From Psychrobacillus psychrodurans (GTDB lineage: Bacteria; Bacillota; Bacilli; Bacillales_A; Planococcaceae), in contig FOUN01000001.1 of the NCBI GenBank assembly GCA_900114885.1, positions 62,001 to 126,000 on the forward strand: a stretch of 64,000 nt of DNA. The letters run 5' to 3'. Under the pieces are notes generated by a model. It worked only from the letters and a program-made list of their open reading frames with translations. It did not search any database and was not told where the DNA came from. Shown piece by piece: positions 6,010-24,042 of the stretch; the first letter of the stretch is position 1; each line of letters opens with the position of its first letter. The translations under genes and the position numbers were made by a program.

Positions 6010-6040
6010 TCTTTTACCTCCAAATTTTAGTCATACCATT

Positions 6041-6069
6041 TATACGAGGATACGATGCAATAAGTTTCA
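6041..6069 (-). promoter_or_regulatory. ECF sigma (SigW/SigM-type) promoter of the Ter operon
   Basis: On the minus strand TGAAAC (plus 6064-6069) is followed after 17 bases by CGTATA (plus 6041-6046), 31 bp before the first terD start. This matches the SigW-type consensus TGAAAC-N16/17-CGTA. The homologous yceC operon in B. subtilis is controlled by cell-envelope ECF sigma factors, so the site makes sense in context. Confidence 0.7.
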
Positions 6070-6190
6070 TAAAAAACAACGCATTCTTATGCAAAGGATA
6101 TTATAATTTTATCAGAATTTTTCAGCTTTTGCTATTAAGTTGAATAGCAAACACCTAGTGAATATTTTCAGGTTGGTGCATAATAAAAAT

Positions 6191-6234
6191 CGAAGCGGAG
6201 AAATATGTTTCTTATAACATATTTCTCCGCTTCG
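6191..6234 (-). terminator. Rho-independent terminator of the esterase gene
   Basis: A 19-bp perfect stem, CGAAGCGGAGAAATATGTT (6191-6209) with AACATATTTCTCCGCTTCG (6216-6234). On the minus strand it is followed by ATTTTTATTA. Confidence 0.9.
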
Positions 6235-6241
6235 AAAATAA

Positions 6242-8095: not shown

Positions 8096-9265
8096 TTATT
8101 TACCTTGAAAGTTAATCGCGGCCATACCCAACGTTTTGGCAGCTATTAGCATTGCGCGTTCATCAAAATCGAACATAGGACTATGGTGAGGGAATACATC
8201 CCCTTCAGGCATAGCACCGGTAAAGAAGAACGTACCAGGGATTTCTTCTAAATAATAACCAAAATCCTCCCCGATCATCAATAATTCGGATTCATTGACT
8301 TTATTAACTCCTGGAACAGCTCTAGCAATGTCTGCAATATACTCTGTCTCCTCTTTATGATTAATTACTGGGGGATAGCCTCTTTCGTATAGGAAAGAAT
8401 AAGAACAATCCGCTGTATAGCATGTGCCTTCTATAACGCGTTTTAGTTCATTTTCCATTAAATCTCTAACATCTGGTTTAAATGTTCGAACGGTACCAGT
8501 CATTTTCACAGTGTCCGCAATAATGTTAAAGGCGTTATCCGCTATAAAAGAACCGACAGAAAGTACTGCAGATTCAGTAGGGTTCACACGTCTTGCCACT
8601 AATTGTTGCAAGTTTACAACTAATTGAGAAGCTATTACAATAGAATCTTTTGTGTCATGTGGATTTGCCCCGTGTCCACCTTTACCTTGGACTGTGATAG
8701 AAAAACGATCGGCTGCAGCCATAATGGGTCCGCTCTTATATTCGATAGTGCCTAAAGGAGTTTGGGACCATAAATGTGTACCGAAAATTACATCTACTCC
8801 ATCTAGACAACCAGCCTCAATCATCGGTTTAGCGCCACCGGGAGCATATTCTTCTGCATGCTGATGGATAAATACATATTCACCTGCGAGTTGGTCTTTG
8901 AATTCATTGATTGTACGGGCAAGTATGAGTAAAGCTGCAGTATGTCCATCATGACCACATGCATGCATAACTCCTGGAAAAGTCGATTTGTAGGGAACGT
9001 CTTTTTCGTCTTGGATTGGGAGAGCGTCAAAGTCTGCTCGAAGCGCAACGGTTTTACCTGGAAATGCACCTTTTATTCGAGCGACTACCCCATTACCGCC
9101 AACGTTAGCTTGGAAAGGTATTTCTAAATGTGTATAGAAATTTTGTATATATTTTGCTGTTTCGGTTTCCTGAAATGATACTTCGGGATGCATATGTAAA
9201 TAGCGTCGGATGCTGACCATTTCATCGTATGATGCCTCAAGCTGCTTTATAATATCCATACTCAT
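8096..9265 (-). CDS. M20-family metallopeptidase / amidohydrolase
   Basis: 389 residues from ATG 9265; the longer frame to 9343 has no ribosome site, whereas 9265 has AAGGGGAG ten bases upstream. The M20 metal site is visible as MHACGHDGHTAAL, followed by HQHAEEYAPGG and GTHLWSQTPLG; the dimerisation insert contains GKGGHGANPHDTKDS. The late GEDFGYYLEEIPG and HHSPMFDFDE complete the aminoacylase/IAA-hydrolase pattern. It is a cytoplasmic two-metal hydrolase of an N-acyl amino acid or peptide. The exact substrate (N-acetyl-diaminopimelate, hippurate or similar) is not resolved. Confidence 0.9.
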   Translation of the reverse strand: MSMDIIKQLEASYDEMVSIRRYLHMHPEVSFQETETAKYIQNFYTHLEIPFQANVGGNGVVARIKGAFPGKTVALRADFDALPIQDEKDVPYKSTFPGVMHACGHDGHTAALLILARTINEFKDQLAGEYVFIHQHAEEYAPGGAKPMIEAGCLDGVDVIFGTHLWSQTPLGTIEYKSGPIMAAADRFSITVQGKGGHGANPHDTKDSIVIASQLVVNLQQLVARRVNPTESAVLSVGSFIADNAFNIIADTVKMTGTVRTFKPDVRDLMENELKRVIEGTCYTADCSYSFLYERGYPPVINHKEETEYIADIARAVPGVNKVNESELLMIGEDFGYYLEEIPGTFFFTGAMPEGDVFPHHSPMFDFDERAMLIAAKTLGMAAINFQGK

Positions 9266-9400
9266 TTTTGATAATCTCCCCTTATCATTTTTAATTAAAT
9301 AAATTATATCAGAGATTGATTCCATTTTTATGAACTTACGCATATTTCACTTGAAATAGACCAAGCTATTTGTATAGCAAATCATAAGGAGGAAAGGTAA

Positions 9401-9958
9401 ATGAATAAACTACTGAAAATAGTATTTATGATGCTTCTAATCGGTATATTGACCGCTTGCGGAAATAATAATAACGATGAGGCAAAAGACAATGGTACGG
9501 ATAATGCAACAGAAAACACGGACACTGCAAATGAAGGTGCTAATGGAACAGATGCAGGTACTACTAATGATGATGCTACAAATGGTGGTACAGGTGATGA
9601 AGGTACTACAAACAACACAGAGGACCAAAATGTAGAAGTAGCGGATGAAGTAGCCGATGTAATAACAGAGTTAGAGGAAGTAGAGTCAGCAAGTGTACTA
9701 GTTACTGATAATAATGCATACGTAGCAGTAGAGCTAAGTGAAGGTACGGAAGAAACGGAAGAAATAAAAACTAAAATTTCCGATGCAGCAAAAGCAGAAA
9801 ATGTTGATTTCAACAATGTATATGTTTCTGCAAACCCTGATTTTAGCCAACAGTTTAGAGACTACGGTGACAGAATTAGAGCAGATGAGCCAGTTGAAGG
9901 CTTTTTTGATGAATTTACAGATACAGTAGAAAGAGTATTTCCCGACCAAGCCCAGTAA
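9401..9958 (+). CDS. YhcN/YlaJ-family sporulation lipoprotein
   Basis: 185 residues. A lipoprotein signal is clear: MNKLLKIVFMMLLIGILTAC with the lipobox LTAC and Cys at 20. Residues 21-75 are a low-complexity Asn/Asp/Thr/Gly spacer, probably disordered. The C-terminal half (VEVADEVADVITELEEVESASVLVTDNNAYVAVEL onward in part) fits the Spore_YhcN_YlaJ domain, which in Bacillus is found in the forespore inner membrane. AAGGAGG lies upstream of ATG 9401. A terminator follows 12 bp after the stop, so it is monocistronic. Confidence 0.88.
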   Translation: MNKLLKIVFMMLLIGILTACGNNNNDEAKDNGTDNATENTDTANEGANGTDAGTTNDDATNGGTGDEGTTNNTEDQNVEVADEVADVITELEEVESASVLVTDNNAYVAVELSEGTEETEEIKTKISDAAKAENVDFNNVYVSANPDFSQQFRDYGDRIRADEPVEGFFDEFTDTVERVFPDQAQ

Positions 9959-9970
9959 ATATGAATGAAG

Positions 9971-10001
9971 AAAACCGATTCCTCAAAGGAATCGGTTTTC
10001 T
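9971..10001 (+). terminator. Rho-independent terminator after the YhcN-like gene
   Basis: AAAACCGATTCCT (9971-9983) and AGGAATCGGTTTT (9987-9999) form a 13-bp perfect stem with a CAA loop, followed by CTTAG. Confidence 0.9.
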
Positions 10002-10009
10002 TAGTTAAA

Positions 10010-10100
10010 AAGGTATATAAAAATGTCTCGTGATCATAGGGTTCTTGATATATGATTTCAGCTTCAGGCGGACGCTTTCCCCGGACTTGGCTTTGTAGAG
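10010..10100 (+). repeat. dispersed repeat family A, copy 1 (left part only)
   Basis: TATAAAAATGTCTCGT followed ~40 bp later by TTCAGGCGGACGCTTTCC resembles the left part of the copies at 25.3 and 40.8 kb. The right-end motif GTCGCCACC is missing, so this copy is truncated. It lies in the 690-bp gene-free stretch 9959-10648. Confidence 0.65.
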
Positions 10101-10141
10101 AGCAACGATTTGTAATTCGATTTTACACATCCAGGCTGTGA

Positions 10142-10297
10142 ATTAGTAAAATTATCCATTCCGCAAGTAAAGGGGAGTAGACCGCAAGTAAATGTAGTCT
10201 TAGAGCAAGTAAATCATCTACGACCGCAAATAAGACAAAGTTGGAAGCGAGTAAAGAATGGGTGAGAGCAAGTAAAGGTAAAGTGAGATCAAATCAT
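10142..10297 (+). repeat. 21-bp phased tandem array with GCAAGTAAA core
   Basis: The core GCAAGTAAA occurs at 10163, 10184, 10205 and 10268, with one-or-two-base variants GCAAATAAG at 10226 and GCGAGTAAA at 10247. All six start exactly 21 bp apart. Degenerate flanking units sit in phase at 10142 (ATTAGTAAA) and 10289 (TCAAATCAT). The bases between cores vary but favour a purine-rich tract ending in AGA. No ORF with a ribosome site reads through it. Exact phasing with divergent spacers suggests selection on the core or an old tandem duplication. Confidence 0.8.
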
Positions 10298-10438
10298 TCA
10301 TTAAGTTTAAGGATGTTCATGCTACTTGAGTGCATAAAATCAGTATTTATAGTACCTTGATTGCAAAAAGGGTCTTCAACTAGTAAAAAAGTATCCGACA
10401 TAAAAATAGCTGGTATCTACCGTATAGAGTAGCGTTTG

Positions 10439-10465
10439 AGCCCCGTAATTGTATCTACGGGGGCT
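10439..10465 (+). other. orphan hairpin, terminator-like
   Basis: AGCCCCGTA (10439-10447) pairs with TACGGGGGCT (about 10456-10465), followed by the short T/C run TCCTT. No gene ends nearby on the plus strand. It could end an unannotated small RNA or be a leftover of a lost gene. Confidence 0.4.
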
Positions 10466-10498
10466 TCCTTAGATGGACAGATAAATGTCATAAGAAAA

Positions 10499-10536
10499 GA
10501 GAGGTTGGTCGTGACCTAAGCCACGACCAACCTCTC
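10499..10536 (-). terminator. Rho-independent terminator of the symporter operon
   Basis: GAGAGGTTGGTCGTG (10499-10513) and CACGACCAACCTCTC (10522-10536) form a perfect 15-bp stem. Read on the minus strand it is followed by TTTTCTTATG. It also forms the first part of repeat family B. Confidence 0.85.
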
Positions 10537-10640
10537 CAAAAAATCATTATATAGCAACAAGTTATCCGAAGCACTTTGGCAACTTTAAAAACAGGCTTTG
10601 AAACTTGAAGGGGGCTGGACATCTTTTTAGTCCGGGTTTT
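10499..10640 (+). repeat. dispersed repeat family B, copy 1
   Basis: A hairpin built on TTGGTCGTGAC is followed by ATATAGCAAC, a CTTTGGCAAC stretch and GGGCTGGACATCTTTT ending in GGGTTTTCTTA. The same order, with substitutions, recurs at 41095-41245 (hairpin, CATATAGCAAC, GGACTGGGCATCTTTT, TGGTTTTCTTA). In both places it lies just after a family A element. Confidence 0.6.
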
Positions 10641-10648
10641 CTTAAATA

Positions 10649-12172
10649 TTACTTTAACCCAATGTTTGCTTTTACATCTACTTCCGCATATTTTCGTTGA
10701 TCTGCACGGGCTCCTACTAGTGTGCCGATCCAACCACCTAAAAATCCAAGAGGAACCGAGACTAAGGCAGGGTTAGTAAGTGGGAAGAGAGCTTCCCCGG
10801 TGAAGGCCATGGAGCCGTCTGCAGCCCAAAGATTAGGACTTAGGGCAACTAGAACAAGAGCAGAAATCAGACCAGTGATGATAGCAGTCAAGGCACCGGT
10901 TGTATTAAAGTTTTTCCAGTAAATTGTGTAAATGATTACAGGAAGGTTTGCACTTGCCGCTATACAAAATGCAAGGGAAACTAAGAATGCCACGTTCATT
11001 GTTTGTGCGCCAAGTGCTAACAAAATAGAGAATACAGAAACACCAACAGAAGCAAGACGTGCGGCATTCATTTGTTCTTTTTCTGTTACTTTTCCTTTTT
11101 TGATAATTTGTCCATATAAGTCATGTGCGAAAGCGGATGCTCCTGATAAAACAAGACCTGCTACAACAGCTAAAATTGTAGCAAATGCAACAGCTGAGAC
11201 AAATGACATTAGTATGTCGCCACCTAAAGCCTGAGCAAGTAGAGGAGCAGCCATATTTCCAGCAGGATTAGCAGCTATAATTGCATCAGAACCAACAAAA
11301 GCAGCAGCGCCAAAACCTAAGAAAATAGTTAATACATAGAAGATACCTACAATCCAAGTAGCGTAAACAACAGAGCTACGTGCAGTTTTTGCATCTTTTA
11401 CAGTAAAGAATCGCATCAATATATGTGGTAGACCAGCAGTTCCAAGTACTAATGCAATCATCATAGATATCGTATCTAAGCCATTTGTATATTTCACACC
11501 AGGATGTAAGTATGCTTCACCATTAGCGGTTACAGATTTCATTTCTGTAAACATTCCTAAAATATTAAAATTGAATTTCCACAATACTAAAATAGAAATA
11601 AGTACAGTCCCTATCATCAACAAAGCAGCCTTTATAATTTGTACCCAACTAGTTGCAGCCATTCCGCCCCAAAGTACATAAATAGTCATCATAACACCGA
11701 CTAAAAGAACGGCAATCCAGTAGTCGATCCCTAATAATAATTGAATAAGTGCGCCTGCACCTACTAGCTGTGCAATCATATAAAATAAAACAATTGTTAA
11801 CGTACTTATTGCAGCAGCTGCGCGAATTTTCTTTTGATCAAATCGAGCAGTAATCATGTCAGCGAGTGTATATTTCCCGAGATTTCGTAGTGGTTCAGCT
11901 ACAATATATAACACAACCAAGTAAGCGACTAAATAACCAATGCTATAAAAGAAACCGTCAAAACCAAAAAGTGCTATTGCTCCAGCGATACCTAGGAAAG
12001 AAGCGGCAGATAAGTAATCTCCGGCAATCGCGATCCCATTTTGCCAACCAGATAATCCTCCGCCCGCAGTATAGAATTCACTAGCTGAGTTTGTCCGTTT
12101 GGAGGCAATGTATGTAACGAATAAAGTTAGTCCTACTATTGCTACAAAAAAAGATAATCCTATTGCATTCAT
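10649..12172 (-). CDS. sodium:solute symporter, acetate-permease-like (ActP/YwcA family)
   Basis: 507 residues with about 13 membrane segments. The SSS-family start (SEFYTAGGGLSGWQNG, then AGDYLSAASFLGIAGAI) is present, followed by YTLADMITARF in the first cytoplasmic loops. It is an inner-membrane Na+-driven uptake system for acetate or another small monocarboxylate. It overlaps by 4 bp the upstream DUF485 gene, the same pairing as yjcH-actP in E. coli and ywcB-ywcA in B. subtilis. A strong terminator lies 113 bp downstream. Confidence 0.9.
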   Translation of the reverse strand: MNAIGLSFFVAIVGLTLFVTYIASKRTNSASEFYTAGGGLSGWQNGIAIAGDYLSAASFLGIAGAIALFGFDGFFYSIGYLVAYLVVLYIVAEPLRNLGKYTLADMITARFDQKKIRAAAAISTLTIVLFYMIAQLVGAGALIQLLLGIDYWIAVLLVGVMMTIYVLWGGMAATSWVQIIKAALLMIGTVLISILVLWKFNFNILGMFTEMKSVTANGEAYLHPGVKYTNGLDTISMMIALVLGTAGLPHILMRFFTVKDAKTARSSVVYATWIVGIFYVLTIFLGFGAAAFVGSDAIIAANPAGNMAAPLLAQALGGDILMSFVSAVAFATILAVVAGLVLSGASAFAHDLYGQIIKKGKVTEKEQMNAARLASVGVSVFSILLALGAQTMNVAFLVSLAFCIAASANLPVIIYTIYWKNFNTTGALTAIITGLISALVLVALSPNLWAADGSMAFTGEALFPLTNPALVSVPLGFLGGWIGTLVGARADQRKYAEVDVKANIGLK

Positions 12173-12579
12173 TCATAATCACCGGCCTTTTCTTTGTCAA
12201 AAATCTTCTCAGCATCTTTATCAAATTCATTAGCTCTGCGTACATAAATCATGCATAACACCCAGGTCATCACAAAAAGTGCAAAGGCATAAATCCAAAC
12301 CCAAGCAATATCACCAAAAGCATTATTATTTAAAATAGTCGTATAAGAAGTCAAAATAGGTAGCAAAATATAACTTAGTAAGAAAAATATTGTAATAGGT
12401 AAAATAAATTTATTCTTTTTCTTTTTTAATGCTTTGAATTCTTCACTCTCTGCTATTGCAGAATAATTTGTCATACCAACAGTTGGAGAAGGTCTGAGAT
12501 TAGAACTTTTTGACGAATTCTGTTTCCTTTTTTCTAGGGAACTTACTGAGTTAACAGAGCTTTCGATATTATTAGCCAT
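12169..12579 (-). CDS. DUF485-family membrane protein (YjcH/YwcB-like)
   Basis: 136 residues. A Ser/Asn-rich N-terminal tail of about 50 residues precedes the DUF485 core, which has two membrane helices (FILPITIFFLLSYILLPIL and IAWVWIYAFALFVMTWVL) and ends with a charged C-terminus. DUF485 proteins are nearly always encoded before an acetate-type symporter and probably assist it. The tail makes it longer than the usual ~100 residues. ATG 12579 has AGGAGG seven bases upstream, and its stop overlaps the symporter start. Confidence 0.88.
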   Translation of the reverse strand: MANNIESSVNSVSSLEKRKQNSSKSSNLRPSPTVGMTNYSAIAESEEFKALKKKKNKFILPITIFFLLSYILLPILTSYTTILNNNAFGDIAWVWIYAFALFVMTWVLCMIYVRRANEFDKDAEKIFDKEKAGDYE

Positions 12580-12840
12580 TCATGTTCCTCCTAAAATATA
12601 TTCAGTATTTAGAATTTTCAGCCAAAAACTGTAATTCTATCATAATAAACATTAAAAGAGATAACAATAAAAATTCACAAAAAATACATAAATATACCTA
12701 AAGAAACTATTGAAATGATATTTAAGTAGTGCTTTTTAGAATTTAGATAAGTTGGATTATGCAATTTCTAAGGTAAAAATGATAACATAGACAAGTTGGA
12801 CAAATTACGTAATCACTACAATAAAGAAGGAGGGTTGTTC

Positions 12841-15800
12841 ATGAGCCAATCAGCAACCTTAGTTAAAACGATGCGCTGCAATTTAATGATTACAAATAAG
12901 GCACGCAAAGGAATTCAGGAATGGTCAACTGATGAACATGCCTTTTTTAACATACAAAATTCTTTTGAGGTATACATTGAAAAACGCCCAGTAAATAATC
13001 ATGGAAATACATCACTTTCCATATATTTTGATAATGTAACGAACGTTAAGTTAGCGGAAAAAGTAGATAGTCGAGTAGTCGTGATGGAGTGCATCCTGCA
13101 AAAGGATGGTTTACTCGCAACGGGTTTACATGTTAGAGGTCCTAAAGTTCCTGTACGTACTAATCGTCGTCTTGCGGTTGATTTGGATTTTGTTACTACT
13201 AGAAATAATGGAGCAGGAATGCCACTTGTGTTGCACACCAAAATTCAAGATCTTCCTGTTGCAGAAGAGCGTTCAGAGTATGTAAAAAAACGGATTTCTA
13301 GCTGGGAAGGTTACTTGAAGATTCAAGAACGTAATGCCGATATTGCAGATATAGCAAGTCCTTATTCAAAACTTGCTTTCAATGCGGATTTTAGTCGTAT
13401 GACATTGCATGGCTGCACGATGAATGCCAACGAATGGAAAAACCTAAGAGGCCTCAGTGTGACGTTAAAGGGATTTCAAAATGACGTAGGAGATATTTTG
13501 AAAGCAGATCGGGCAAAACAAACAATTGAAGTAGAGATTAAACCAAAGTTTAGAGAATTAGCAAGGAAAAATCAGTGGAATCCCAAATCGAAAGAGGTAG
13601 TTTTTAGTAATTTCGCATCCCTAAGCCAAATTAGACGACTTCGAAAGGGTTTTGAAGATTTACAAAATGGACTCGCAGCCAATCCAAATCTGGAAAAGAT
13701 CTTATTTGAAGATCGACCAACCATTCGCGTGAATGCAAAACGTCGAGAATTAGAATTCCATAACCAGCTAAACGAATTTCAACAAGAAGCGGTTGTTGGT
13801 GCCATGTCGGCTGAAGATTTATATGTAATTCAAGGCCCACCAGGAACTGGGAAAACGACGGTGATTTCTGAAATATGTCAGCAAAATGCGAAGGCTGGCT
13901 TACGTACACTTGTAGCATCCCAGTCTAATTTAGCAGTAGACAATGCCCTTAGTAGATTACTTTCAAACAAAGAAATTCGTATTTTACGATTCGGTAGGAC
14001 AGAAAGTATTGAAGAGGAAGGCAAAAGGTTTATTGAAGAAAATGTCGGACTGTACTGGAAAGAGCAAACGTTAATTTCTTTAAAGAAAGAATTGGACGAG
14101 CATTCTTTAAGAGAAGGTCAGCTTCTTGAACAAATAGCTGGATGTGAGTGTCGAATTGAAGAACTTAGTAAAGAACAAATATTAATAAAAAAAGCTATTG
14201 AACAAAAAGCGGAAGCAAAAGTGGAACACGAAGTTAGATTAGAAGAAATTAAACAGTTAAAAAAGCAAATAGTTTTATTAAAAAAAGATCGTGAGGAGCT
14301 AGAAATAAGTCTTTACGACGTACGAGTAAAGTCGGAAGCTTTAGCTCATGAATTAGAAACAATGGATCGATTTATCCAAACTAATCCTACAAGGGAAGAG
14401 CTAAACTCAGAGATAGATCAATTTATGGTAAAGATAAAGGATATTCAAAATTATATACTATATAAAGAAACTATAGATTCCCTGCAGCAAACAGAAATAA
14501 ATGTGGAGACATATAGAGAAAAATATCAAGAGGTACTGGTCAAGCTAAATCATTTAGAAATGTTAAAGAGTGATATTGATTCTATTCGCAAGGTTGATCA
14601 ATTGAAAAGTAAAATGAATGAATATGAAATAGAATGTTCTTCTCAGCTGCAGTTTCAGATGACTGAATTAGACGAGCTAATTGGTAAGATATTAGCTTTC
14701 ACTGATTGGCAAGAGCTAAACTCTCGCTTATTCGCAGCAATAGATTATGTAGAAAAGCTTCTTCAGAAATATAAGTTTCCTTTTGAAAATGTTAAAAATA
14801 ATATGGGGAGAAGTGGCATTCTATTTGATTCTGAATACACAGTGAAAGAAATTCATCAGTTTATGAATCGGATGAAACATATAATGACAGCTGATGATGA
14901 ACTTACTACCGAAAAGTTAGCTATTTTGCTTGAAGGATTATATGTAAGAGAAAAATTTGTTATAAAACAGAAATCAACCGTTCAAATGGCAAAAAATAGT
15001 TCCATAACTAAATTTCAATCGATTAAGTCTCAAGTCCTCAGTGATACCAATAGAGAGATGATGTCACTGCAACATCTGAAAACTGAATTAGCTAATAAGG
15101 CTATAAATGAAAAGAATCAATTAGACTTTCTACAAAAAACAGTGAAGCAGCTAGAGATAGAAATTGATACAACCAAACTACTTTCTACCTCAGCAGAACT
15201 AAAAGACAAGAAATTGGAGATGGAAAGCTCTATTGTAGCATTGAAAAAAACGGAAGAAACCGTAACAAGCTATATGGAACAACTGGAAATGAAAAAGAGA
15301 GATCTTCAAAAGGTAACCAAGGAACTAGAAGAGAAAGAAGCAGTTCTCCAAGACAATGAACTAAAAACTAAACAAGTGAATGCAGATGGTTTAGAGCAAG
15401 AGCGCATACTAAAAGCTTTAGATGAAATATTGCTTCAAAATCCAGAGCAAGCACTCGAAAATACGGTGGAAGCGATAAAAGGAACTAAAGGGGAAATGGT
15501 AAAACTTCAACTAGAGAAGGATCATCTTCCGATCACCCAAGCAGTTCAAAATGAGTGGTACTTATTATTGAAAGAAGCAAATGACCACGATTTAGATGAA
15601 ATTCGTAAGCTATATGTTCGACATGCTAATGTAATCGGAACAACATGTGTTGCATCAGCTCGTAAAGAGTTTATGGAAAACTATCCTGTTTTCGATGTTG
15701 TTATTATTGATGAGGTTTCTAAAGCAACACCACCTGAGTTGCTTCTGCCAATGTTAAAAGGTAAGAAGATTATCTTAGTAGGTGACCATCATCAGCTTCC

Positions 15801-16659
15801 TCCACTAGTCGGTGAAGACACTCTAGATGAAACACTTCAGGCAATACTAGAAGAAAGTGATAATCTAGAAGAAAAAGACGAGTTGAAAAAGCTTTTGAAG
15901 GAATCATTATTCGAACGTTTATTCAAAAATTTACCAAAGACGAGCAAGACGATGCTAGCAATTCAATATAGAATGCATGAAAGTATAATGGAGACTATCA
16001 CTCCATTTTATGAGGAAGAAAATTATCGACTACAATGCGGGTTGGCCGATTCAGATACTGCTCGTGATCATCTACTTGAGTCCAGATATGTGAAAAGAAA
16101 AGACCATTTGCTATGGCTAGATATGCCAAGCGAAAAACCATATTTTGAAGAACGTATGAAGGATGGCAAAAGTAGATTCAACCAAGCAGAGTTAGATGCT
16201 ATCCGTGATGTACTAATCGATTTGAATGATGCTACAGCTAATGCAAAAAAAGAAGGAAGAATGGATCCAGATGAACGTAAAAGTATTGGGGTCATTAGTT
16301 TTTATGGAGAACAGGTTAAACGAATTGACCGTCTTATAGGGCAACAAGCAAACTTATCACATTTGACCTTCAGAACTGGAACTGTAGACAAGTTTCAGGG
16401 GATGGAAATGGATGTCATTCTCTTAAGTATGGTAAGAAACAATCAAGAAAAGAGTGGAGATATTGGATTTGCAAATGATTATCGCCGCTTAAACGTTGCA
16501 TTATCACGAGCAAGAGAGCTACTTATCTTAGTAGGAAGCTCCCATATGTTCACAAAACGAGCAAAACAAAGAACCTCTAGAGAAATGTATGAACGCTTGC
16601 TTCAAATTGTAAAAGGGAATAATGGACTGATTAACTTTCAGAAAGACGGTAATAAATAA
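12841..16659 (+). CDS. SF1 (UPF1/COG1112-like) helicase with long coiled-coil insertion
   Basis: 1272 residues from ATG 12841 (AGGAGGG six bases upstream; an in-frame ATG at 12796 lacks one). Residues 1-320 are an unassigned N-terminal region. The Q-like motif NEFQQEAV and Walker A GPPGTGKTT (from residue 332) follow, then motif Ia ASQSNLAVDN. Residues ~415-915 are Glu/Lys/Leu-rich heptads, a very long coiled coil. The second half resumes with motif II DEVSK (Asp 957), GDHHQLPP, QYRMHESIM, TVDKFQGMEMDVI and RRLNVALSRAREL, so all SF1 motifs are intact. It should be an ATP-dependent RNA or DNA translocase. The insertion recalls SMC/Rad50-like spacing. It is followed by a winged-helix gene 27 bp downstream. 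Confidence 0.88.
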   Translation: MSQSATLVKTMRCNLMITNKARKGIQEWSTDEHAFFNIQNSFEVYIEKRPVNNHGNTSLSIYFDNVTNVKLAEKVDSRVVVMECILQKDGLLATGLHVRGPKVPVRTNRRLAVDLDFVTTRNNGAGMPLVLHTKIQDLPVAEERSEYVKKRISSWEGYLKIQERNADIADIASPYSKLAFNADFSRMTLHGCTMNANEWKNLRGLSVTLKGFQNDVGDILKADRAKQTIEVEIKPKFRELARKNQWNPKSKEVVFSNFASLSQIRRLRKGFEDLQNGLAANPNLEKILFEDRPTIRVNAKRRELEFHNQLNEFQQEAVVGAMSAEDLYVIQGPPGTGKTTVISEICQQNAKAGLRTLVASQSNLAVDNALSRLLSNKEIRILRFGRTESIEEEGKRFIEENVGLYWKEQTLISLKKELDEHSLREGQLLEQIAGCECRIEELSKEQILIKKAIEQKAEAKVEHEVRLEEIKQLKKQIVLLKKDREELEISLYDVRVKSEALAHELETMDRFIQTNPTREELNSEIDQFMVKIKDIQNYILYKETIDSLQQTEINVETYREKYQEVLVKLNHLEMLKSDIDSIRKVDQLKSKMNEYEIECSSQLQFQMTELDELIGKILAFTDWQELNSRLFAAIDYVEKLLQKYKFPFENVKNNMGRSGILFDSEYTVKEIHQFMNRMKHIMTADDELTTEKLAILLEGLYVREKFVIKQKSTVQMAKNSSITKFQSIKSQVLSDTNREMMSLQHLKTELANKAINEKNQLDFLQKTVKQLEIEIDTTKLLSTSAELKDKKLEMESSIVALKKTEETVTSYMEQLEMKKRDLQKVTKELEEKEAVLQDNELKTKQVNADGLEQERILKALDEILLQNPEQALENTVEAIKGTKGEMVKLQLEKDHLPITQAVQNEWYLLLKEANDHDLDEIRKLYVRHANVIGTTCVASARKEFMENYPVFDVVIIDEVSKATPPELLLPMLKGKKIILVGDHHQLPPLVGEDTLDETLQAILEESDNLEEKDELKKLLKESLFERLFKNLPKTSKTMLAIQYRMHESIMETITPFYEEENYRLQCGLADSDTARDHLLESRYVKRKDHLLWLDMPSEKPYFEERMKDGKSRFNQAELDAIRDVLIDLNDATANAKKEGRMDPDERKSIGVISFYGEQVKRIDRLIGQQANLSHLTFRTGTVDKFQGMEMDVILLSMVRNNQEKSGDIGFANDYRRLNVALSRARELLILVGSSHMFTKRAKQRTSREMYERLLQIVKGNNGLINFQKDGNK

Positions 16660-16686
16660 CGTTTTTAGCTATAGGAGTAAATTAAA

Positions 16687-17445
16687 ATGATTGATTTAGA
16701 AAAACGTCTAAAAAAAGAATTACAACAAAATGTACAAGCTAAGATAGTTTCGTCCACTGCATGGACGATTCCACTTCATACAATTGAAGTGGAATACAAA
16801 CCTGTAAAGCGTATTAAAATGGATGTTCTCATGAAAATGATGTTGATAACATGCCAAAAAGCAGAATTAACAAGTGGTAAACAAATCAGTGAATTATTGC
16901 TTGTAGAGCAGCTATTTATGGAAGACTTGATCAATATTATGAAGAGAACTCGTTTAATCGAAATAAAAAACCAAATACTTACGCTGACCGAAAAAGGGTG
17001 CAATCAACTGGAAGAAGGAATATTTGAAGAAGAACTAGATGCCCGAAGTCAAAATTTACTTTATAGCCCAAGTCATTGTAGCTTTTTGCAAGGTGAAATA
17101 AAACCAGCACTGGACGGCGAGGAAACACTGAACCTATATCGTTATACTTCTGAGGAAAAGGTGAGGTTAAAGTGGGAAGATGCGGTTCTAATAGACGCCC
17201 TCCAAACAAAAGGGATGGAAACTGTGGATGGAGATCTTCAAACAGTAGTTTCTGAAATTGTATCCAGCTCTGAATTATATGTGGATGATGTTCCCTGCTT
17301 TGAGTTTATTTTGCACAATAAATCAGAGGATCTTCTATACGCCCGGGTATGGAATACATTTCTTGACCAATGGGATGAAACACTAGAAAATGAGTTGAAT
17401 GAAAGAGAACGAGTTGTTTGGCGGGAGAAATATTTAAAAGAGTAA
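16687..17445 (+). CDS. winged-helix partner of the SF1 helicase, unknown function
   Basis: 252 residues, no family recognised. Residues ~45-110 have the pattern of a winged helix-turn-helix: MKMMLITCQKAELTSG, then QISELLLVEQLFMEDLINIM, then a beta wing IEIKNQILTLTEKG. The C-terminal 140 residues are acidic and include CFEFILHNKSEDLLYARVW and an Asp/Glu/Trp-rich end. No membrane segment or signal peptide is present. It starts 27 bp after the helicase stop, with AGGAG upstream, and ends before a terminator, so the two form a closed operon. A DNA- or RNA-binding or adaptor role for the helicase is inferred from context only. Confidence 0.75.
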   Translation: MIDLEKRLKKELQQNVQAKIVSSTAWTIPLHTIEVEYKPVKRIKMDVLMKMMLITCQKAELTSGKQISELLLVEQLFMEDLINIMKRTRLIEIKNQILTLTEKGCNQLEEGIFEEELDARSQNLLYSPSHCSFLQGEIKPALDGEETLNLYRYTSEEKVRLKWEDAVLIDALQTKGMETVDGDLQTVVSEIVSSSELYVDDVPCFEFILHNKSEDLLYARVWNTFLDQWDETLENELNERERVVWREKYLKE

Positions 17446-17755
17446 GAAAAGAGAATGGGTTGTCCTGTTGGAAGAATTTAATAATATCAAATATGAATAT
17501 TAATCAAAGTCTGTTTCGCTTAGTTGCGAAATAGACTTTTTTTATCGGCTTTTCGATTTTCAAAAGGTGTTGCGATAATATCATTATTTTAGCGATTTAT
17601 AGGCAAAACGTTATGGATATTCGATCCAATTTAAAAATATAGAGTATGGAATTTAGGTAGATTAGTACTATTTTTTTGAGTGTTCTTCAAGTAAATTAGT
17701 AGTACGAAATAAAAGTTTGAAAAATCTATAAATTTGATTGTTAGGAGACTAGGAT
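17446..17755. other. 310-bp intergenic region before the kinase operon
   Basis: It holds the terminator at 17507-17543 and then AT-rich sequence leading to the kinase start at 17756 (TTAGGAG upstream). I see no small ORF and no convincing promoter hexamers. Confidence 0.6.
17507..17543 (+). terminator. Rho-independent terminator of the helicase operon
   Basis: AAAGTCTGTTTCGC (17507-17520) pairs with GCGAAATAGACTTT (17526-17539) with one mismatch near the base, followed by TTTT. Confidence 0.85.
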
Positions 17756-20700
17756 ATGAATATCAAGAAAAAATTAACCTTAGGATTCCTGGCGTTAATA
17801 CTTATATTAAGTCTTGTTGCAGGTATTGGGATTAGATCAGTAATGGAAACGTTCAATAAAATGAACGATATAGTTAATGATGAATATAAAAAAATTGGTC
17901 TTATATCTGACATACGTTATGAATTCAATAATAAAGCAAAAGGAATTTCATATCTCATATTAACTGAATCCGAAAGCGAAACTAAAAGTGAAATAAATAA
18001 TATCCGTGTAGCAGGGGATAGAGGGAGGATGGCGATAGAGGAGCTTGAAAGATTAGTCAATACAGAAGAGGGAGAAAAACTTTTATTAGAAATTAAGCAA
18101 AAACAAATAAATTTTAACGATTTTGTGGAAAAGGAAATTACTTTGGTACAAGCTGGTAGCAAACAGGAAGCATCTGAGCTTGTTAGAACTGAGGGAAAGT
18201 TGATACAAGAGGAGTACTTCAATTCACTGTTCAACCTTGTTAATTACTATGAAATTGACATGGATGCAGCACTTGTTAAAGCGGATTCTGACTACCAGAA
18301 AACCTCAATGATTTTAACTATTCTCGCTCTAATAGGAATTGCAGTTGGCATTATTATTTCTATCATTATAACGAGAGGTATTGTCAAAGGAATCAATCAT
18401 ATTTCAAGTGTTATGGGTGACTTTTCGTCAGGACAATCTAAGTTGTCTAGCCGTATAGATAATATAACCAATGATGAACTAGGACACCTGTCTATTTCGT
18501 TTAACACCATGGCAGATGCGCTTGAAAATCAAGTGAAAAAAGCACTTGAAATAAGTACTAGAAATGAAGAGCAAGCCTGGATGATGAAAAACCTCGCTAA
18601 TTTAACTACTTATCTCCAAAGCTCAAAAGACTTAATCTCATTTTCTCACACCTTTATGCAAGAAATTACTCCAATAGTTGGTGGTAAATATGGTGTCTTT
18701 TATTTAAATGAAGAAAATGATGGAGAGACCTTATTTAGTCTGACTGGTGCTTATGCATATAAGCAACTAGACGATAAAAATAGCACTATTAGGTTAGGAG
18801 AAGGTTTGATAGGTCAGAGTGCATTGTCTAAAGAGACGATCAGCCTTGTAGATATACCAACAAACTATACTCATATCGCTTCTGGAGTCGGGCAAGCTAT
18901 TCCCAAGCAAATTCTCATAATACCAATAGTATTTGAGGACAAGGTTAGAGCTGTTTATGAAATTGCTTCCTTCCAAAAGTTTAGTAGTATTGAACGGAAG
19001 TTATTAGAAGAGCTGGCGGACTATTCAGGTATCATAATTGACAATATTGCAGGTCGACACAAAATGATGGAATTACTTCAGGAATCACAAACAATGACAG
19101 AAGAACTACAAACACAGTCAGAAGAGTTATCTACCCAACATGAGGAATTGAAGCGTTTTAATGAAGAATTGGAAACTCAGACAACAGCATTAATACAATC
19201 CGAGCTAATGCTTCAACAGCAGGCAAGAGAATTAGAGCAAACTAATAGTGAACTAGAAGAAAAAGCAATCTTACTTGAAGAACATAATCAAAAATACAAG
19301 GTAAAAAACAGGGAGGTAGAAAGAGCGAAGACTGAGTTAGAGGAGAAGGCGACACAATTAGAGTTAACTTCTAAATATAAGTCAGAATTTTTAGCTAATA
19401 TGTCGCATGAATTGAGGACACCTTTAAATAGCCTACTCATTTTATCGAAGTTATTGGCAGATAACAATTCTCGTAACTTATCTGCTAAGCAAGTTGAATA
19501 TGCGCATACGATAAACTCAGCTGGCTGCGATCTGTTAGATCTCATCAACGATATTCTCGATTTGTCTAAAATTGAATCAGGAAAGTTAGATATCCATGTC
19601 AATGAAGTGAAAATCCAAGATATTACTGATTATGTCGAAAGAAACTTTAATGCTATTGCATACGAAAAGGGTCTTACGTTTCACGTAGTAAAAGATTTCC
19701 TGGAGGAGGAGATTCTTTACACAGATGAAAAAATACTTCAGCAAATACTAAAAAACCTAATCGCAAATGCTATTAAATTTACGGATAGTGGTAGCGTTAC
19801 ACTGCAGGTATCGCATGTTGCAGAAGATAGCTTAGATTTAAATATGGAAGAAGAAACAGATTATATTTCCTTTTCTGTAACAGATACAGGAATTGGAATT
19901 CCTAAAAATAAACAATCAATTATTTTTGAGGCTTTTCAACAAGCTGATGGAACTACTAGTAGGAAATACGGAGGAACTGGGCTTGGACTATCAATAAGTA
20001 GAGAGCATGCTTCTTTATTGAACGGGAAGATTGTTGTCGACAGCACTGAAGGAAGAGGGAGTACGTTTAAGCTATTCATACCAACTGATTTGAATCAGAG
20101 AGTTGAGGTAGTTGAAAAGGAAGTAGCGAGTACTATAGAAAAGGTCGCAGTTTACGATGATAGAGAACTTTATGATGTAGGAAGTCAATTATTAATTGTC
20201 GAAGATAGTATTATCCAGCGAGAGAGTATAAAAGAGCTTATTTCTTCAAATTACTCTAATATTACGCTAACAGCTGTTACTTCGGGAAAAGAAACTTTAA
20301 ATGCGTTACATGTAAAACATTATGACTGTATTATATTGGATCTTGGATTAGAGGATATGACGGGGATTCAATTACTAAAGCATATAAAAGAACATGGCGA
20401 ATGGATTAATACCCCAGTTATTATTTATACAGGGAAGGAATTGACGGTAAGAGAAGAAATGGAACTAAAGCATTTTACAGAGATAATAATTGTCAAAGGA
20501 ATAAACTCATCTGAACGTCTGCTTAACGAAATTTCTCGATTCATTGCACAAGAGTATAGAGGTAATAGTAATATAGATGAATTTTTACTTAGACCGACTA
20601 CTCCCGTTAATTCAAATAAACTGTTCTTTAGTGGTAAAAAAATCTTAATAGTGGATGATGATGTTCGGAATGTCTTTGCTCTATCTAGTATTTTAGAAGA

Positions 20701-21001
20701 ATATGAGATGAGTGTGCTTTTTGCTGAAAACGGTCGGGAAGCTCTGAGTACATTAAGTATAAATACTGATATCGACCTAGTGTTGATGGATATTATGATG
20801 CCTGAAATGGATGGCTTCGAAGCCATAACAAAGATACGAGAAATGGAACAATTCGAAGATCTACCAATCATAGCGTTAACCGCTAAAGCAATGCAAGAAG
20901 ATCGCGAGAAGTGTATTTCAGTAGGAGCTTCCGACTATATTTCGAAGCCAATAGTCAACGATCAGCTTTTATCATTGATGAGAGTTTGGCTATACACATA
21001 A
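17756..21001 (+). CDS. hybrid sensor histidine kinase with HAMP, GAF and two receiver domains
   Basis: 1081 residues. Membrane helix 1 (7-27), an extracytoplasmic four-helix-bundle region (~30-180) and helix 2 (~186-207) are followed by HAMP (~208-260), GAF (~280-430) and a Gln/Glu-rich coiled coil (~440-545). The HisKA H-box MSHELRTPLN places the phospho-His at 551. The HATPase boxes NLIANAIKF, DTGIGIP and GGTGLGLS are intact. Two receivers follow, with phospho-Asp at about 862 (ILDLGLED) and 1012 (MDIMMPEMDG). It is a membrane sensor with internal phosphorelay. It is followed 12 bp later by cheR and then a c-di-GMP enzyme, so the operon couples signal sensing to methylation and second-messenger output. 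Confidence 0.93.
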   Translation: MNIKKKLTLGFLALILILSLVAGIGIRSVMETFNKMNDIVNDEYKKIGLISDIRYEFNNKAKGISYLILTESESETKSEINNIRVAGDRGRMAIEELERLVNTEEGEKLLLEIKQKQINFNDFVEKEITLVQAGSKQEASELVRTEGKLIQEEYFNSLFNLVNYYEIDMDAALVKADSDYQKTSMILTILALIGIAVGIIISIIITRGIVKGINHISSVMGDFSSGQSKLSSRIDNITNDELGHLSISFNTMADALENQVKKALEISTRNEEQAWMMKNLANLTTYLQSSKDLISFSHTFMQEITPIVGGKYGVFYLNEENDGETLFSLTGAYAYKQLDDKNSTIRLGEGLIGQSALSKETISLVDIPTNYTHIASGVGQAIPKQILIIPIVFEDKVRAVYEIASFQKFSSIERKLLEELADYSGIIIDNIAGRHKMMELLQESQTMTEELQTQSEELSTQHEELKRFNEELETQTTALIQSELMLQQQARELEQTNSELEEKAILLEEHNQKYKVKNREVERAKTELEEKATQLELTSKYKSEFLANMSHELRTPLNSLLILSKLLADNNSRNLSAKQVEYAHTINSAGCDLLDLINDILDLSKIESGKLDIHVNEVKIQDITDYVERNFNAIAYEKGLTFHVVKDFLEEEILYTDEKILQQILKNLIANAIKFTDSGSVTLQVSHVAEDSLDLNMEEETDYISFSVTDTGIGIPKNKQSIIFEAFQQADGTTSRKYGGTGLGLSISREHASLLNGKIVVDSTEGRGSTFKLFIPTDLNQRVEVVEKEVASTIEKVAVYDDRELYDVGSQLLIVEDSIIQRESIKELISSNYSNITLTAVTSGKETLNALHVKHYDCIILDLGLEDMTGIQLLKHIKEHGEWINTPVIIYTGKELTVREEMELKHFTEIIIVKGINSSERLLNEISRFIAQEYRGNSNIDEFLLRPTTPVNSNKLFFSGKKILIVDDDVRNVFALSSILEEYEMSVLFAENGREALSTLSINTDIDLVLMDIMMPEMDGFEAITKIREMEQFEDLPIIALTAKAMQEDREKCISVGASDYISKPIVNDQLLSLMRVWLYT

Positions 21002-21013
21002 GGAGGTTAAGAA

Positions 21014-21874
21014 ATGAAGTCAAAGAGTGACTTACCTCAAGAGTGTTTAGAAAGTAACTCTAGGACAGAAAAAATAGAAATAACTTTACTTTTAGAAGGT
21101 ATATTCCAACGTTATGGTCATGATTTTCGGGGTTACTCTTATCCTTCTATTAATAGAAGAATTAAATATCGTATGGAATTAGAAGGATTAACCTCTATTT
21201 CTTATCTTCAACAAAGGGTACTATACGAACCTAAGATGATGAGAAAACTACTCAAAGATTTTTCTATAAATGTCACTGAAATGTTCAGAGATCCAGAATT
21301 TTATTCATCGTTTCGTAAACGTGTAGTTCCACTTTTGCATTCCTATCCATTTATAAGGATCTGGCATGCGGGCTGCTCCACGGGTGAAGAGGCATATTCA
21401 ATGGCTATCCTTTTGTATGAAGAAGGCCTTTATAAAAAAAGTAAAATTTATGCAACCGATATGAATATGGATGTGTTAGAAAAGGCCGAAAAGGGAATTT
21501 TTTCTTTTGAAAAAATGAAACAGTACACAAGCAATTATCAAAAAGCTGGGGGATTACATGCCTTTTCGGAATACTATACTGCTGATCAATACGGAGTTAA
21601 ATTTAAACCTTTCTTAAGTGAAAATATTGTTTTTGCTAGGCATAATCTTGTAACAGATAGTTCCTTTAATGAATTTAACGTAATTATATGTAGGAACGTA
21701 TTAATCTATTTTGATAAACAGCTACAAAATCAGGTCCATGGATTATTTCAAGAAAGTCTAAGTAGGTTTGGCGTCCTAGGCTTAGGTAGCAAAGAATCTA
21801 TAAGGTTTTCTCCTTATATGGCATGTTACGAGGAAATAGATGCAGAAAACAAACTATATAAAAAGATAGATTAA
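21014..21874 (+). CDS. CheR-type protein-glutamate methyltransferase
   Basis: 286 residues. The N-terminal CheR helical domain (FQRYGHDFRGYSYPSINRRI) precedes a SAM-binding domain with WHAGCSTGEEAYSMAI, then the acidic YATDMN and the late NVIICRNVLIYFD. These are the standard CheR motifs. It should methylate Glu residues of a receptor, or of the neighbouring sensor kinase, using S-adenosylmethionine. No CheB methylesterase lies beside it. It is 12 bp after the kinase gene with AGGAGG upstream, and its stop overlaps the start region of the next gene. A stand-alone CheR next to a hybrid kinase suggests a non-chemotaxis role. Confidence 0.9.
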   Translation: MKSKSDLPQECLESNSRTEKIEITLLLEGIFQRYGHDFRGYSYPSINRRIKYRMELEGLTSISYLQQRVLYEPKMMRKLLKDFSINVTEMFRDPEFYSSFRKRVVPLLHSYPFIRIWHAGCSTGEEAYSMAILLYEEGLYKKSKIYATDMNMDVLEKAEKGIFSFEKMKQYTSNYQKAGGLHAFSEYYTADQYGVKFKPFLSENIVFARHNLVTDSSFNEFNVIICRNVLIYFDKQLQNQVHGLFQESLSRFGVLGLGSKESIRFSPYMACYEEIDAENKLYKKID

Positions 21875-21903
21875 TGAAAAAAACTAAAGTGAGGATGTGC
21901 AAT

Positions 21904-24042
21904 ATGGAGAAGTACATCGAAAAAGTAAATGTGTTATTAGTAGATGATCGTCCAGAAAATTTGCTTGCTCTGGAAGCTGTATTAGGCGACCTAGATTACA
22001 ATCTAATTAGAGCATATTCGGGAGAAGAGGCGCTAAAATGCTTATTAAAGGATGATTTTGCTGTAATTTTGTTAGATGTACAAATGCCTGGATTAAATGG
22101 TTTCGAGACAGCAAAAATTATTAAATCTAGACCGAAGACAAAGGATACTCCGATTATTTTTATTACAGCGATTAGTAAAGCCCCAGAAAATGTTTATACC
22201 GGGTATTCCGTTGGAGCGATAGATTATGTATTCAAACCATTTGAACCAGATGTCCTTAAATCTAAAATTGAAAGTTTTACTGCTATTCACCGAAACAAAA
22301 AAGGACTAGAAGAATATACGGAACTATTGCTTGAAAAAACACAGAGCTTAGAAAAAGCCAATCAAGATCTAATAGAAACTACGCTCAAATTAAAGAAGTC
22401 TGAAGCTTTGAATGGGATTATCAAAAATACCTCTATAGACGCGATGATTACATACAATGAATCATTTGAAATTTTAACAGTCAATCCCGCTACTAAGCGG
22501 ATGTTTGGGTACGAAGAGGTAGATTTAATTGGGCAAAAGATTATGCAAATTATTCCTGCAGCAACCTTGGCGATAGAATTTGGACATGAATTTGGAAAAA
22601 GATTAGAAGTTACGGGTGTTCGGAGTGATTCTAGTAACTTTCCTGTGGAGGTTCAATTAGGGAATGCAACTATTGATAATCATAGTATATATGCATGTAC
22701 TATTAGAGATATTAGTGAACTTAAAACTCAAATGAATGCTTTAGCTCATCAAGCTTTGCATGACTCACTCACATCTCTTCCTAATCGCAATTTGTTATAT
22801 GATCGATTGGAACAAGGAGTTAAAGCGGCGAAAAATGATCATAGCAATTTCTCTCTAATATTGATTGACTTGAATCACTTCAAAGTAATAAATGATACAC
22901 TTGGTCATCACTTTGGAGATTTGTTACTTCAACAAGTTGGAAATAGACTGGTTGAAATTGTAAATGTAAAAGATACGGTAGCTCGTTTAGGCGGGGATGA
23001 ATTTGCGCTTTATTTACCGACAGCAACGAAAGAACAGACGATAGATATAGCTAAGAAAGTAATACACACTATGGAACAACCTTTCATACTAGACGATCAT
23101 GTTCTTTCTATTAGTTTGAGTCAAGGAATTGTCTTTTATCCAGACCATGGGGATAATGTGCAAACCCTAATGAAAAAAGCAGATATCTCGATGTATACCG
23201 CCAAGAAAAAGGATAGTGGCTACTGTATCTTTTCATCTGAACTAGACACGCATACAATAGAAGAACTTAGTTTAGTAGGAAGTCTCAAAGAAGCAATAGA
23301 AAATGATAGGCTAGAGCTTCACTATCAACCACAGGTCGATATGAAAACAAAAAAAGTGACCGGTGTCGAAGTGTTATTGAGGTGGATTCATCCTACCTAT
23401 GGATTTATACCGCCAGATCGGTTCATACCTATAGCAGAACAAAATGGCCTAATGAAAAAGCTGACAATCATGGTTCTCGAAAAAGCATTGCAGCAAAGTA
23501 AAAAGTGGTTAGAAGATGGATTAGAATTACAAATTTCGGTTAACCTATCCGCTTCAAATCTTCAAGATATGCAACTTTCAGATGACATACAAATTTTAAT
23601 GAATAAATACAATATGAACCCTAAGACACTTACTTTGGAAATAACGGAAAGTTTTATTATGAGTAATCCAGCTAGAGCGAAAGGAATATTACAAAACTTA
23701 TCCTCAATGGGTATAAACCTCTCAATAGATGACTTTGGTACAGGCTATTCTTCTTTAGCCTACTTAAAAAAGCTTCCAGTCAATGAAATAAAAGTGGATA
23801 AATCCTTTGTAATAGACATGTTAGATAGTAAAAGTGATGAAATAATCGTCAATACGGTTATCAATCTGGCCCATAACTTAGGACTTCAAGTAGTGGCGGA
23901 GGGTATAGAAAGTAAGGAAGTGTGGGATAATCTGCAAGCAATAAATTGTGATACAGCACAAGGTTACTATTTAAGCAAACCTGTGCCAGCTGAATCTTTT
24001 TATTTATGGTATATGAATCATAATGGAGTATTTGCAACATAA
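21904..24042 (+). CDS. REC-PAS-GGDEF-EAL bifunctional c-di-GMP enzyme
   Basis: 712 residues from ATG 21904 (GAGGA eight bases upstream; the earlier ATG at 21874 overlaps the cheR stop and lacks a ribosome site). An N-terminal receiver carries LLVDDRPEN and phospho-Asp in ILLDVQMPG. A short coiled coil and a PAS domain (~145-260) follow. The cyclase motif GGDEF is intact (ARLGGDEFAL). The phosphodiesterase domain has EVL in place of EAL, but the metal and catalytic residues in NLSASN, EITES, DDFGTGYSS and KVDKSF are all present, so activity is plausible. Its receiver probably takes phosphate from the hybrid kinase two genes upstream, setting c-di-GMP level. Confidence 0.93.
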   Translation: MEKYIEKVNVLLVDDRPENLLALEAVLGDLDYNLIRAYSGEEALKCLLKDDFAVILLDVQMPGLNGFETAKIIKSRPKTKDTPIIFITAISKAPENVYTGYSVGAIDYVFKPFEPDVLKSKIESFTAIHRNKKGLEEYTELLLEKTQSLEKANQDLIETTLKLKKSEALNGIIKNTSIDAMITYNESFEILTVNPATKRMFGYEEVDLIGQKIMQIIPAATLAIEFGHEFGKRLEVTGVRSDSSNFPVEVQLGNATIDNHSIYACTIRDISELKTQMNALAHQALHDSLTSLPNRNLLYDRLEQGVKAAKNDHSNFSLILIDLNHFKVINDTLGHHFGDLLLQQVGNRLVEIVNVKDTVARLGGDEFALYLPTATKEQTIDIAKKVIHTMEQPFILDDHVLSISLSQGIVFYPDHGDNVQTLMKKADISMYTAKKKDSGYCIFSSELDTHTIEELSLVGSLKEAIENDRLELHYQPQVDMKTKKVTGVEVLLRWIHPTYGFIPPDRFIPIAEQNGLMKKLTIMVLEKALQQSKKWLEDGLELQISVNLSASNLQDMQLSDDIQILMNKYNMNPKTLTLEITESFIMSNPARAKGILQNLSSMGINLSIDDFGTGYSSLAYLKKLPVNEIKVDKSFVIDMLDSKSDEIIVNTVINLAHNLGLQVVAEGIESKEVWDNLQAINCDTAQGYYLSKPVPAESFYLWYMNHNGVFAT

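Follow-up and report, generated by a model that had tools for sequence, protein, structure and literature searches.

A UPF1-type helicase with long helical arms and its winged-helix partner: a candidate effector-less, core-genome branch of defence-type modules in Psychrobacillus and its relatives

What might be done by a helicase whose motor domain is parted by long helical arms and which is constantly encoded next to a small winged-helix protein? The question is raised by two adjacent genes in a 64,000-nucleotide stretch of the Psychrobacillus psychrodurans genome (assembly GCA_900114885.1, contig FOUN01000001.1, positions 62,001 to 126,000), which we call the window and whose numbering we use unless another locus is named. 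The first gene, HEL (12841..16659, on the forward strand like all window features below), encodes a UPF1-type superfamily 1 (SF1) helicase of 1272 aa, and the second, PAR (16687..17445), a winged-helix adaptor protein of 252 aa; both open reading frames (ORFs) lie where an initial annotation, made from the letters of the DNA, had placed them. Their parts are ordinary, while the whole is unusual: the pair looks like a long-armed branch of a defence-type module that lacks the effector and belongs to the core genome. More specifically, we give an even chance to the proposal that HEL and PAR are an effector-less, core-genome branch of the modules that couple a UPF1-like helicase with a winged-helix adaptor, known from the CoCoNuT (CnuH-CnuE) and Mokosh (MkoA-MkoB) systems, and that they carry out nucleic-acid surveillance, a function that we infer.

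The motor itself is of a familiar kind. Pfam recovers AAA_11 and AAA_12 in HEL, which is the sole AAA_12 match in the host genome, and its structure and SF1 motifs match the two-RecA fold of UPF1, IGHMBP2 and Sen1, in line with the UPF1/COG1112-type assignment made at the outset. The front of the first RecA domain (RecA1; residues 324-410, 13810..14070) bears Walker A and motif Ia and shows a mean identity of 89% between members and the window protein; the back of RecA1 and the second RecA domain (RecA2), with the AAA_12 match and motifs II to VI, occupy residues 912-1260 (15574..16620). Across 32 aligned members, GPPGTGKTT (332-340), DEVSKATPPE (957-966), VGDHHQLPPL (980-989) and QYRMH (1042-1046) are invariant, as is ASQSNLAVDNAL (359-370) with the exception of S362, and most positions of VDKFQGMEMD and ALSRAR are invariant or almost so; we take these blocks to be the SF1 motifs of the usual names. 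The motifs are thus intact, and the spacing of about 590 residues given earlier for motifs Ia and II is correct. These members come from 32 of the 41 loci in the family (alignments A1 and A2), and two further alignments (A3, 75 sequences; A4, 63) draw on the window and 80 named loci, the best 80 of 169 related ones.

An insert of about 485 residues interrupts RecA1. It is predicted by AlphaFold to form two long helical arms on either side of a helical tip: an outgoing arm (residues 387-581, 13999..14583; pLDDT, the predicted local distance difference test, 70-90 over most of its length and lower at the base), the tip (585-684, 14593..14892) and a returning arm (690-911, 14908..15573). In three parts of the insert the heptad signal exceeds that of shuffled sequences, with mean z of 4.33, 3.41 and 3.35 as against 0.61 in the core (940-1250), and z > 2 in 31, 27 and 24 of 32 rows as against none of 32, which agrees with the long heptad-rich coiled coil first read from the sequence. 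The initial annotation had also described the shape as SMC-like. SMC and Rad50 proteins do have a coiled coil between Walker A and Walker B, and HEL has this arrangement, with Walker A at 332-340, the arms at 387-911 and motif II at 957; the likeness is confined to the arrangement, however, since SF1 helicase domains stand in place of an ABC-type ATPase head. This topology invites the idea of a helicase-based DNA machine akin to SMC or Rad50, with arms that would tether or entrap DNA and with PAR as a KITE-like winged-helix subunit in repair or chromosome maintenance. The conserved, chromosomal pair would suit such a machine, and Foldseek lists Wadjet JetC and MukB for HEL, but at template modelling scores (TM-scores) of at most 0.12, which reflect little beyond long helices; given the SF1 head and the lack of a gene cluster recurring beside the pair across the family, we regard it as unlikely.

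The pairing of the two genes is strict. HEL and PAR are adjacent in 41/41 loci, and HEL lies directly upstream of PAR on the same strand in 79 of the 80 named loci, so that the pairing proposed earlier proves conserved; two of these loci (L155 and L181) have a shortened helicase ORF, that of L181 continuing in another frame. The AlphaFold model of PAR (mean pLDDT 91, predicted TM-score 0.75) opens with a long strand (18-44) that leads into a winged helix of the MarR/CggR type (44-112, 16816..17022), as expected from the initial reading, and continues into a beta-rich C-terminal half without a recognised catalytic domain (113-252, 17023..17442) that includes a second long strand (184-211) and a C-terminal helix. 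Its resemblance to CggR and MarR could mean that PAR is a transcription regulator merely sharing an operon with a helicase; the near-invariable pairing (79/80; 41/41), the similarity to MkoB-type proteins that are likewise encoded downstream of helicases, and the long strands outside the winged helix-turn-helix (wHTH) domain make this the least probable of the explanations considered, and very improbable in itself.

Two MkoB profiles match 17/32 and 16/32 PAR members (E <= 0.01, best 1.4e-08), over the N-terminal adaptor half of MkoB. A profile of PAR, in turn, matches longer partners of related helicases ahead of their extensions, namely those of L225 (profile positions 43-190, E 1.7e-11), the Cyanobacterium sp. 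HL-69 plasmid (61-156, 1.7e-8), the Aulosira laxa NIES-50 plasmid (4-133, 1e-5) and L224 (52-117, 5e-6). Accordingly, PAR looks like the adaptor half alone: to judge from modest E-values and gene order, it would be the wHTH part of MkoB/CnuE-type proteins minus the effector. A partner that could not be placed at first thereby finds a probable place. Neither a nuclease nor a PLD domain is found by Pfam in any of 32 PAR members, as the initial annotation had noted of nucleases, and PAR as a nuclease was rejected on this ground; the PLD control is uneven, with PLDc_2 above the cut-off in the partner of L220, below it in L224 and absent in L221, L222 and L223. A divergent effector may nonetheless lie within residues 113-252. 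The remaining Pfam matches in PAR members are single and weak (Autophagy_act_C in one, E 0.0021; DUF4796_C in two). Sequence searches of PAR returned nothing from the PDB at E up to 1 and nothing from a viral library at E <= 0.001, and the structure search bore on the winged helix while barely probing other folds.

How close, then, is the pair to the known systems? HEL scores 373 bits against MkoA, so that the relationship to Mokosh suggested at the outset is borne out. The Mokosh type I comparators L224 and L222 score 745 and 770 bits and have N-terminal kinase matches (Pkinase in L224, kinase families in L222), whereas HEL has no Pfam match to an N-terminal kinase or NERD domain; PLD matches occur in the partners of L220 (above the Pfam cut-off) and L224 (short of it) and not in PAR; and the inserts of five Mokosh comparators measure 40-175 aa. 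Excerpts of published descriptions list NERD and PLD-like domains among those of type I Mokosh (PMC10952713) and have Mokosh degrading viral transcripts (PMC11291487). The likeness to CoCoNuT lies in the build of CnuH-CnuE, in which, according to extracts of its description, the UPF1-like SF1 helicase has behind Walker A an insertion that is helical and in part coiled coil, and the next gene encodes an elongated wHTH protein (PMC11090510); such an insertion, a feature of CoCoNuT types II and III, is present in HEL. The same extracts state that HEPN or PLD nucleases are found in the majority of CnuE proteins, that the system has CnuB and CnuC, that the coiled coils of CnuH are shorter than those of CnuA and CnuB, and that AlphaFold multimer models suggest a contact between the CnuE wHTH and the CnuH insertion (PMC11090510). 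By contrast, PAR has the wHTH without a recognised nuclease effector fused to it, and over the 41 loci the pair has no constant neighbouring cluster, McrBC-type CnuB/CnuC genes included, and no fixed third gene. Membership in Mokosh or CoCoNuT proper was rejected, as their defining features are lacking. In genome G050 a CoCoNuT-like locus (L226, 5365-13900) encodes a helicase with an insert of 194 aa and its partner, and has in addition a gene for an AAA_5 protein and another large gene.

In a tree of helicase cores from 26 of the 41 loci, L227 and seven comparators, the HEL members and L225 fall on one side of a branch with 100/99 support, and five MkoA-type comparators and L226 on the other. 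When plasmid relatives are included (14 loci, with comparators L221 and L223 excluded), three cyanobacterial helicases, HEL, L225 and an Aliarcobacter helicase are separated, again at 100/99, from three MkoA comparators and L226; this tree carries a long-branch warning and the order within the HEL side is without support. The Aliarcobacter helicase, on a long branch, has an insert of just 46 aa and lies near qatC, while those of the cyanobacterial plasmids of Nostoc sp. C052, Cyanobacterium sp. HL-69 and Aulosira laxa NIES-50 have among them inserts of 437, 585 and 650 aa. In these long-arm relatives and L225 (437-650 aa), the PAR profile recognises the N-termini of the partners, in Nostoc weakly (E 0.0027), and these partners, unlike PAR, go on to DarT (Nostoc), PLD (HL-69 and Aulosira, just above the Pfam cut-off) or an extension of about 200 residues that has no Pfam match (L225); the relatives also differ from HEL-PAR in being plasmid-borne or rare. 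The HL-69 pair adjoins hsdR and toxin-antitoxin genes. On the Nostoc plasmid the pair is flanked by pglX and pglZ within a BREX locus, where the DarT-bearing partner is followed by an ADP-ribosylglycohydrolase; this locus (L237, 4867-11615) may be a toxin-antidote version of the module. In the rare relative L225 (5597-10777, genome G050) the helicase insert measures 516 aa and the partner 453 aa.

The neighbours and similarities of these relatives bring in the possibility that HEL and PAR are an active anti-phage or anti-plasmid system, in which the tip would recognise foreign nucleic acid or nucleoprotein and PAR would recruit an effector from another locus, or in which the motor by itself would block replication or transcription. 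The likeness of HEL and PAR to MkoA and MkoB, the long-arm relatives whose DarT- or PLD-bearing partners lie next to BREX, hsdR or toxin-antitoxin genes, and two divergent allele classes of the distal insert in one genus (described below) would all suit such a system. The distribution speaks against it. In surveys of one genome per species, HEL and PAR occur in the same 62 of 121 relatives, comprising 62 of 73 genomes of the family, Planococcaceae (with 19/19 of the genus), and 0/48 outside the family, and PAR is present in 237 of 261 genomes of the order. In a phylum sample of 398 genomes it matches four: its own genome, one of the family, a strong match in another family (G695) and a weak partial one. 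As compared to this, one of the two MkoB profiles (PDLC03922) is found in 4 of 261 order genomes (E <= 1e-15) and 2 of 249 phylum genomes, and the L225 partner in 1/261 of the order (E <= 1e-15). PAR is absent from 72,556 plasmids and 50,697 phages; HEL as query finds 29 plasmid records and one phage record at E <= 1e-20, none with 80% coverage.

The place of the pair is likewise conserved, within groups of genera. In Psychrobacillus one downstream gene cluster (cluster 2) accompanies it in 18/19 loci and two upstream ones (4 and 5) in 14/19 each; clusters 12 and 13 are common to genera g10, g13, g15 and g18 (five loci), 17, 18 and 19 to g5 and g17 (four loci), and 58-63 to g6 and g14 (two loci), and other flanks are found at L063 of Psychrobacillus and at three g3 loci. 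The named loci include Sporosarcina, Lysinibacillus, Ureibacillus and Planococcus and scattered ones in Halalkalibacter, Domibacillus, Metabacillus and Mesobacillus, which we take to be Bacillaceae. Among 91 of the 97 flanking proteins of these Bacillaceae loci (six of L181 excluded), PADLOC (E <= 1e-15; 25 of 26 families listed) matches two proteins with mad3 and one with each other listed family, mostly of helicase type, as a single SNF2 helicase would give, along with one Csa3 match; the Pfam families (1e-8; 25 of 89 listed) include S-layer, hydrolase, transport and metabolic ones and a single SNF2 member. Such flanks are mostly of ordinary families with few strong defence matches, and the pair of the window lies in no defence island, as first read. 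Because the pair is near-universal, its flanks are shared within genus groups and PAR is without plasmid or phage matches, a patchy, horizontally spread defence system was set aside as the leading reading; of the defence or RNA-surveillance role first proposed, the surveillance part may still hold, and an active anti-phage or anti-plasmid system of the kind outlined appears rather improbable to us. The initial annotation had also held that presence at one place in nearly all relatives, with a known housekeeping role, would speak against its reading. The pair is indeed in nearly all relatives (62/73; PAR 237/261) and its flanks are common within several genus groups, though not all; yet no known household role was found for it in the literature, where searches aimed at the family gave only the CoCoNuT papers as relevant. 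A term search of PMC12839542 found no UPF1 or SF1 helicase.

Selection and exchange within the genus bear on the same question. The core and PAR are under purifying selection. We compared the window with 11 loci, most of the six distant ones being saturated; in the five closest comparisons the ratio of nonsynonymous to synonymous rates (dN/dS) is 0.006-0.087 in the core, 0.067-0.135 in PAR (0.12 and 0.22 against an exchanged copy in L065), 0.087-0.104 in the tip and adjoining arm (residues 561-740) where dS < 1, with 0.075 for L068 versus L074 (three comparisons with dS < 1 in all), and rises to 0.20-0.41 in residues 411-560 and 741-895 of the arms. The insert shows no sign of positive selection, its highest ratio being 0.41, and the unelevated dN/dS is a further point against an active anti-phage system. 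The distal insert (residues about 480-780, 14278..15180) nevertheless falls into two divergent allele classes, which divide six related species into the window, L068 and L074 on one side and L065, L069 and L066 on the other. Third-position identity over residues 481-720 is 40-60% between classes and 58-93% within them, and 55-90% in other intervals except 721-780 (48-80%). Trees of the head and of this block reject each other in approximately unbiased (AU) tests over 19 genomes (p 0.0007 and 4e-11) and, with the 5-prime head alone, over seven loci (p 0.0015 and 1e-43), where the head tree is poorly resolved and a tree of a flanking symporter, weakly supported, covers five of the seven. These classes are most simply explained by exchange of a divergent segment, though long-lasting old alleles or a burst in rate may also account for them. 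The window and L065, of different classes, share a tract at about 15,700-17,435 with 96-100% DNA identity, versus about 87% in its flanks, which by its sequence is a recent exchange between two Psychrobacillus species; exchange thus also reached the RecA2 half and PAR. The PAR proteins of the window and L065 are about 98% identical in spite of their different insert classes; PAR is therefore independent of the tip class and probably touches HEL at some distance from the tip. The two divergent tip alleles hint that the tip recognises a target.

The remaining features frame the two genes. HEL is read from the ATG at 12841 behind a Shine-Dalgarno-like GGAGG (12828..12834), in preference to a TTG at 12796 that a mechanical ORF call gives. 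Its N-terminal domain (residues 1-140, 12841..13260) has no family match: Pfam returns nothing for the window protein and seven weak single-member matches among 23 members, and a profile search of the PDB gives one match at E 0.83. Residues 141-323 (13261..13809), ahead of Walker A, form what we take to be stalk and 1B-like domains, the aligned part of the model beginning at residue 140 of HEL against residue 295 of UPF1. The terminator attributed to the pair corresponds to a hairpin with a T run at 17506..17539; in its favour, such hairpins lie within 150 nt of the PAR stop in 11/41 loci as against 0.1 expected from shuffles, but a scan of the window region itself yields one site against 2.7 expected. 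A promoter scan was uninformative (20 sites, 19.1 expected), and Rfam has no match in 9000-22000. Three signalling genes (17756-24042), encoding a hybrid histidine kinase with GAF and receiver domains, a CheR and a receiver-PAS-GGDEF-EAL protein, separate PAR from the cluster-2 gene; in 13 of 18 congeners that gene comes immediately after PAR. Among the named loci, the pair of L155 comes from a record titled Planctomycetes bacterium AG-333-L23 and is perhaps contamination, and L129, with a PAR homologue at 5995-6762 and no helicase nearby, is titled Arthrobacter beigongshangensis and may be misnamed.

Several observations weigh against an effector-less surveillance module. The nearest plasmid relatives have DarT or PLD partners, one of them in a BREX locus, so that defence may have been the original role and an effector might be supplied in trans; an arms race would likewise be compatible with the two divergent tip alleles. 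PAR is absent from all eight sampled genomes of genus g4 and all eight of g9, which are among the 20 listed of 24 order genomes without it, and one of the 80 named loci (L129) has PAR without HEL in the stretch retrieved. The match between PAR and MkoB is modest, and MkoB is not alone in it: WH_III-A and PRTase_III-A, profiles of retron type, also match 12/32 and 8/32 PAR members, and hence the MkoB signal would in part reflect a shared wHTH type. The PAR profile is also weak on the partners of L226 (0.0016), Nostoc (0.0027, as above), L220 (0.055) and L222 (0.13) and gives no match to the Aliarcobacter partner. Finally, the choice of RNA over DNA as the substrate is one that we infer from the family.

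With these points allowed for, the surveillance proposal would work as follows. HEL would translocate on single-stranded nucleic acid, probably RNA; its arms would bring the tip within reach of a target made of protein or nucleoprotein, for instance a stalled ribosome or polymerase; PAR might dock near the head and couple or regulate the motor; and the output would be clearance or remodelling by the motor, rather than cleavage by a nuclease of its own. Such an action could resemble surveillance by Sen1 and UPF1, which have the helicase fold in common with HEL and, to our knowledge, neither a comparable coiled-coil insert nor such an adaptor partner, or rescue by a long-armed motor in the manner of HelD. 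HelD, in an extract of its description, is a motor with long helical arms that recycles RNA polymerase in Bacillus subtilis (PMC7749165). Its likeness to HEL is that of a motor with long helical arms only, and it is not among the structural matches listed for HEL. It presumably belongs to a different SF1 branch. More tentatively, and less probably than the surveillance proposal itself, a defence module may have turned into a core cellular surveillance machine. It would be a UPF1-like motor, freed of its effector and retained by nearly the whole family, whose arm spans about 30 nm and whose exchangeable tip senses ribonucleoprotein complexes that are stalled or abnormal.

Modules of helicase, adaptor and effector are known or predicted as weapons, and an effector-less branch would show their sensing half alone. 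In the family HEL and PAR may be a bacterial counterpart of UPF1-type surveillance, with the mosaic tip as the part of HEL that may meet the target.
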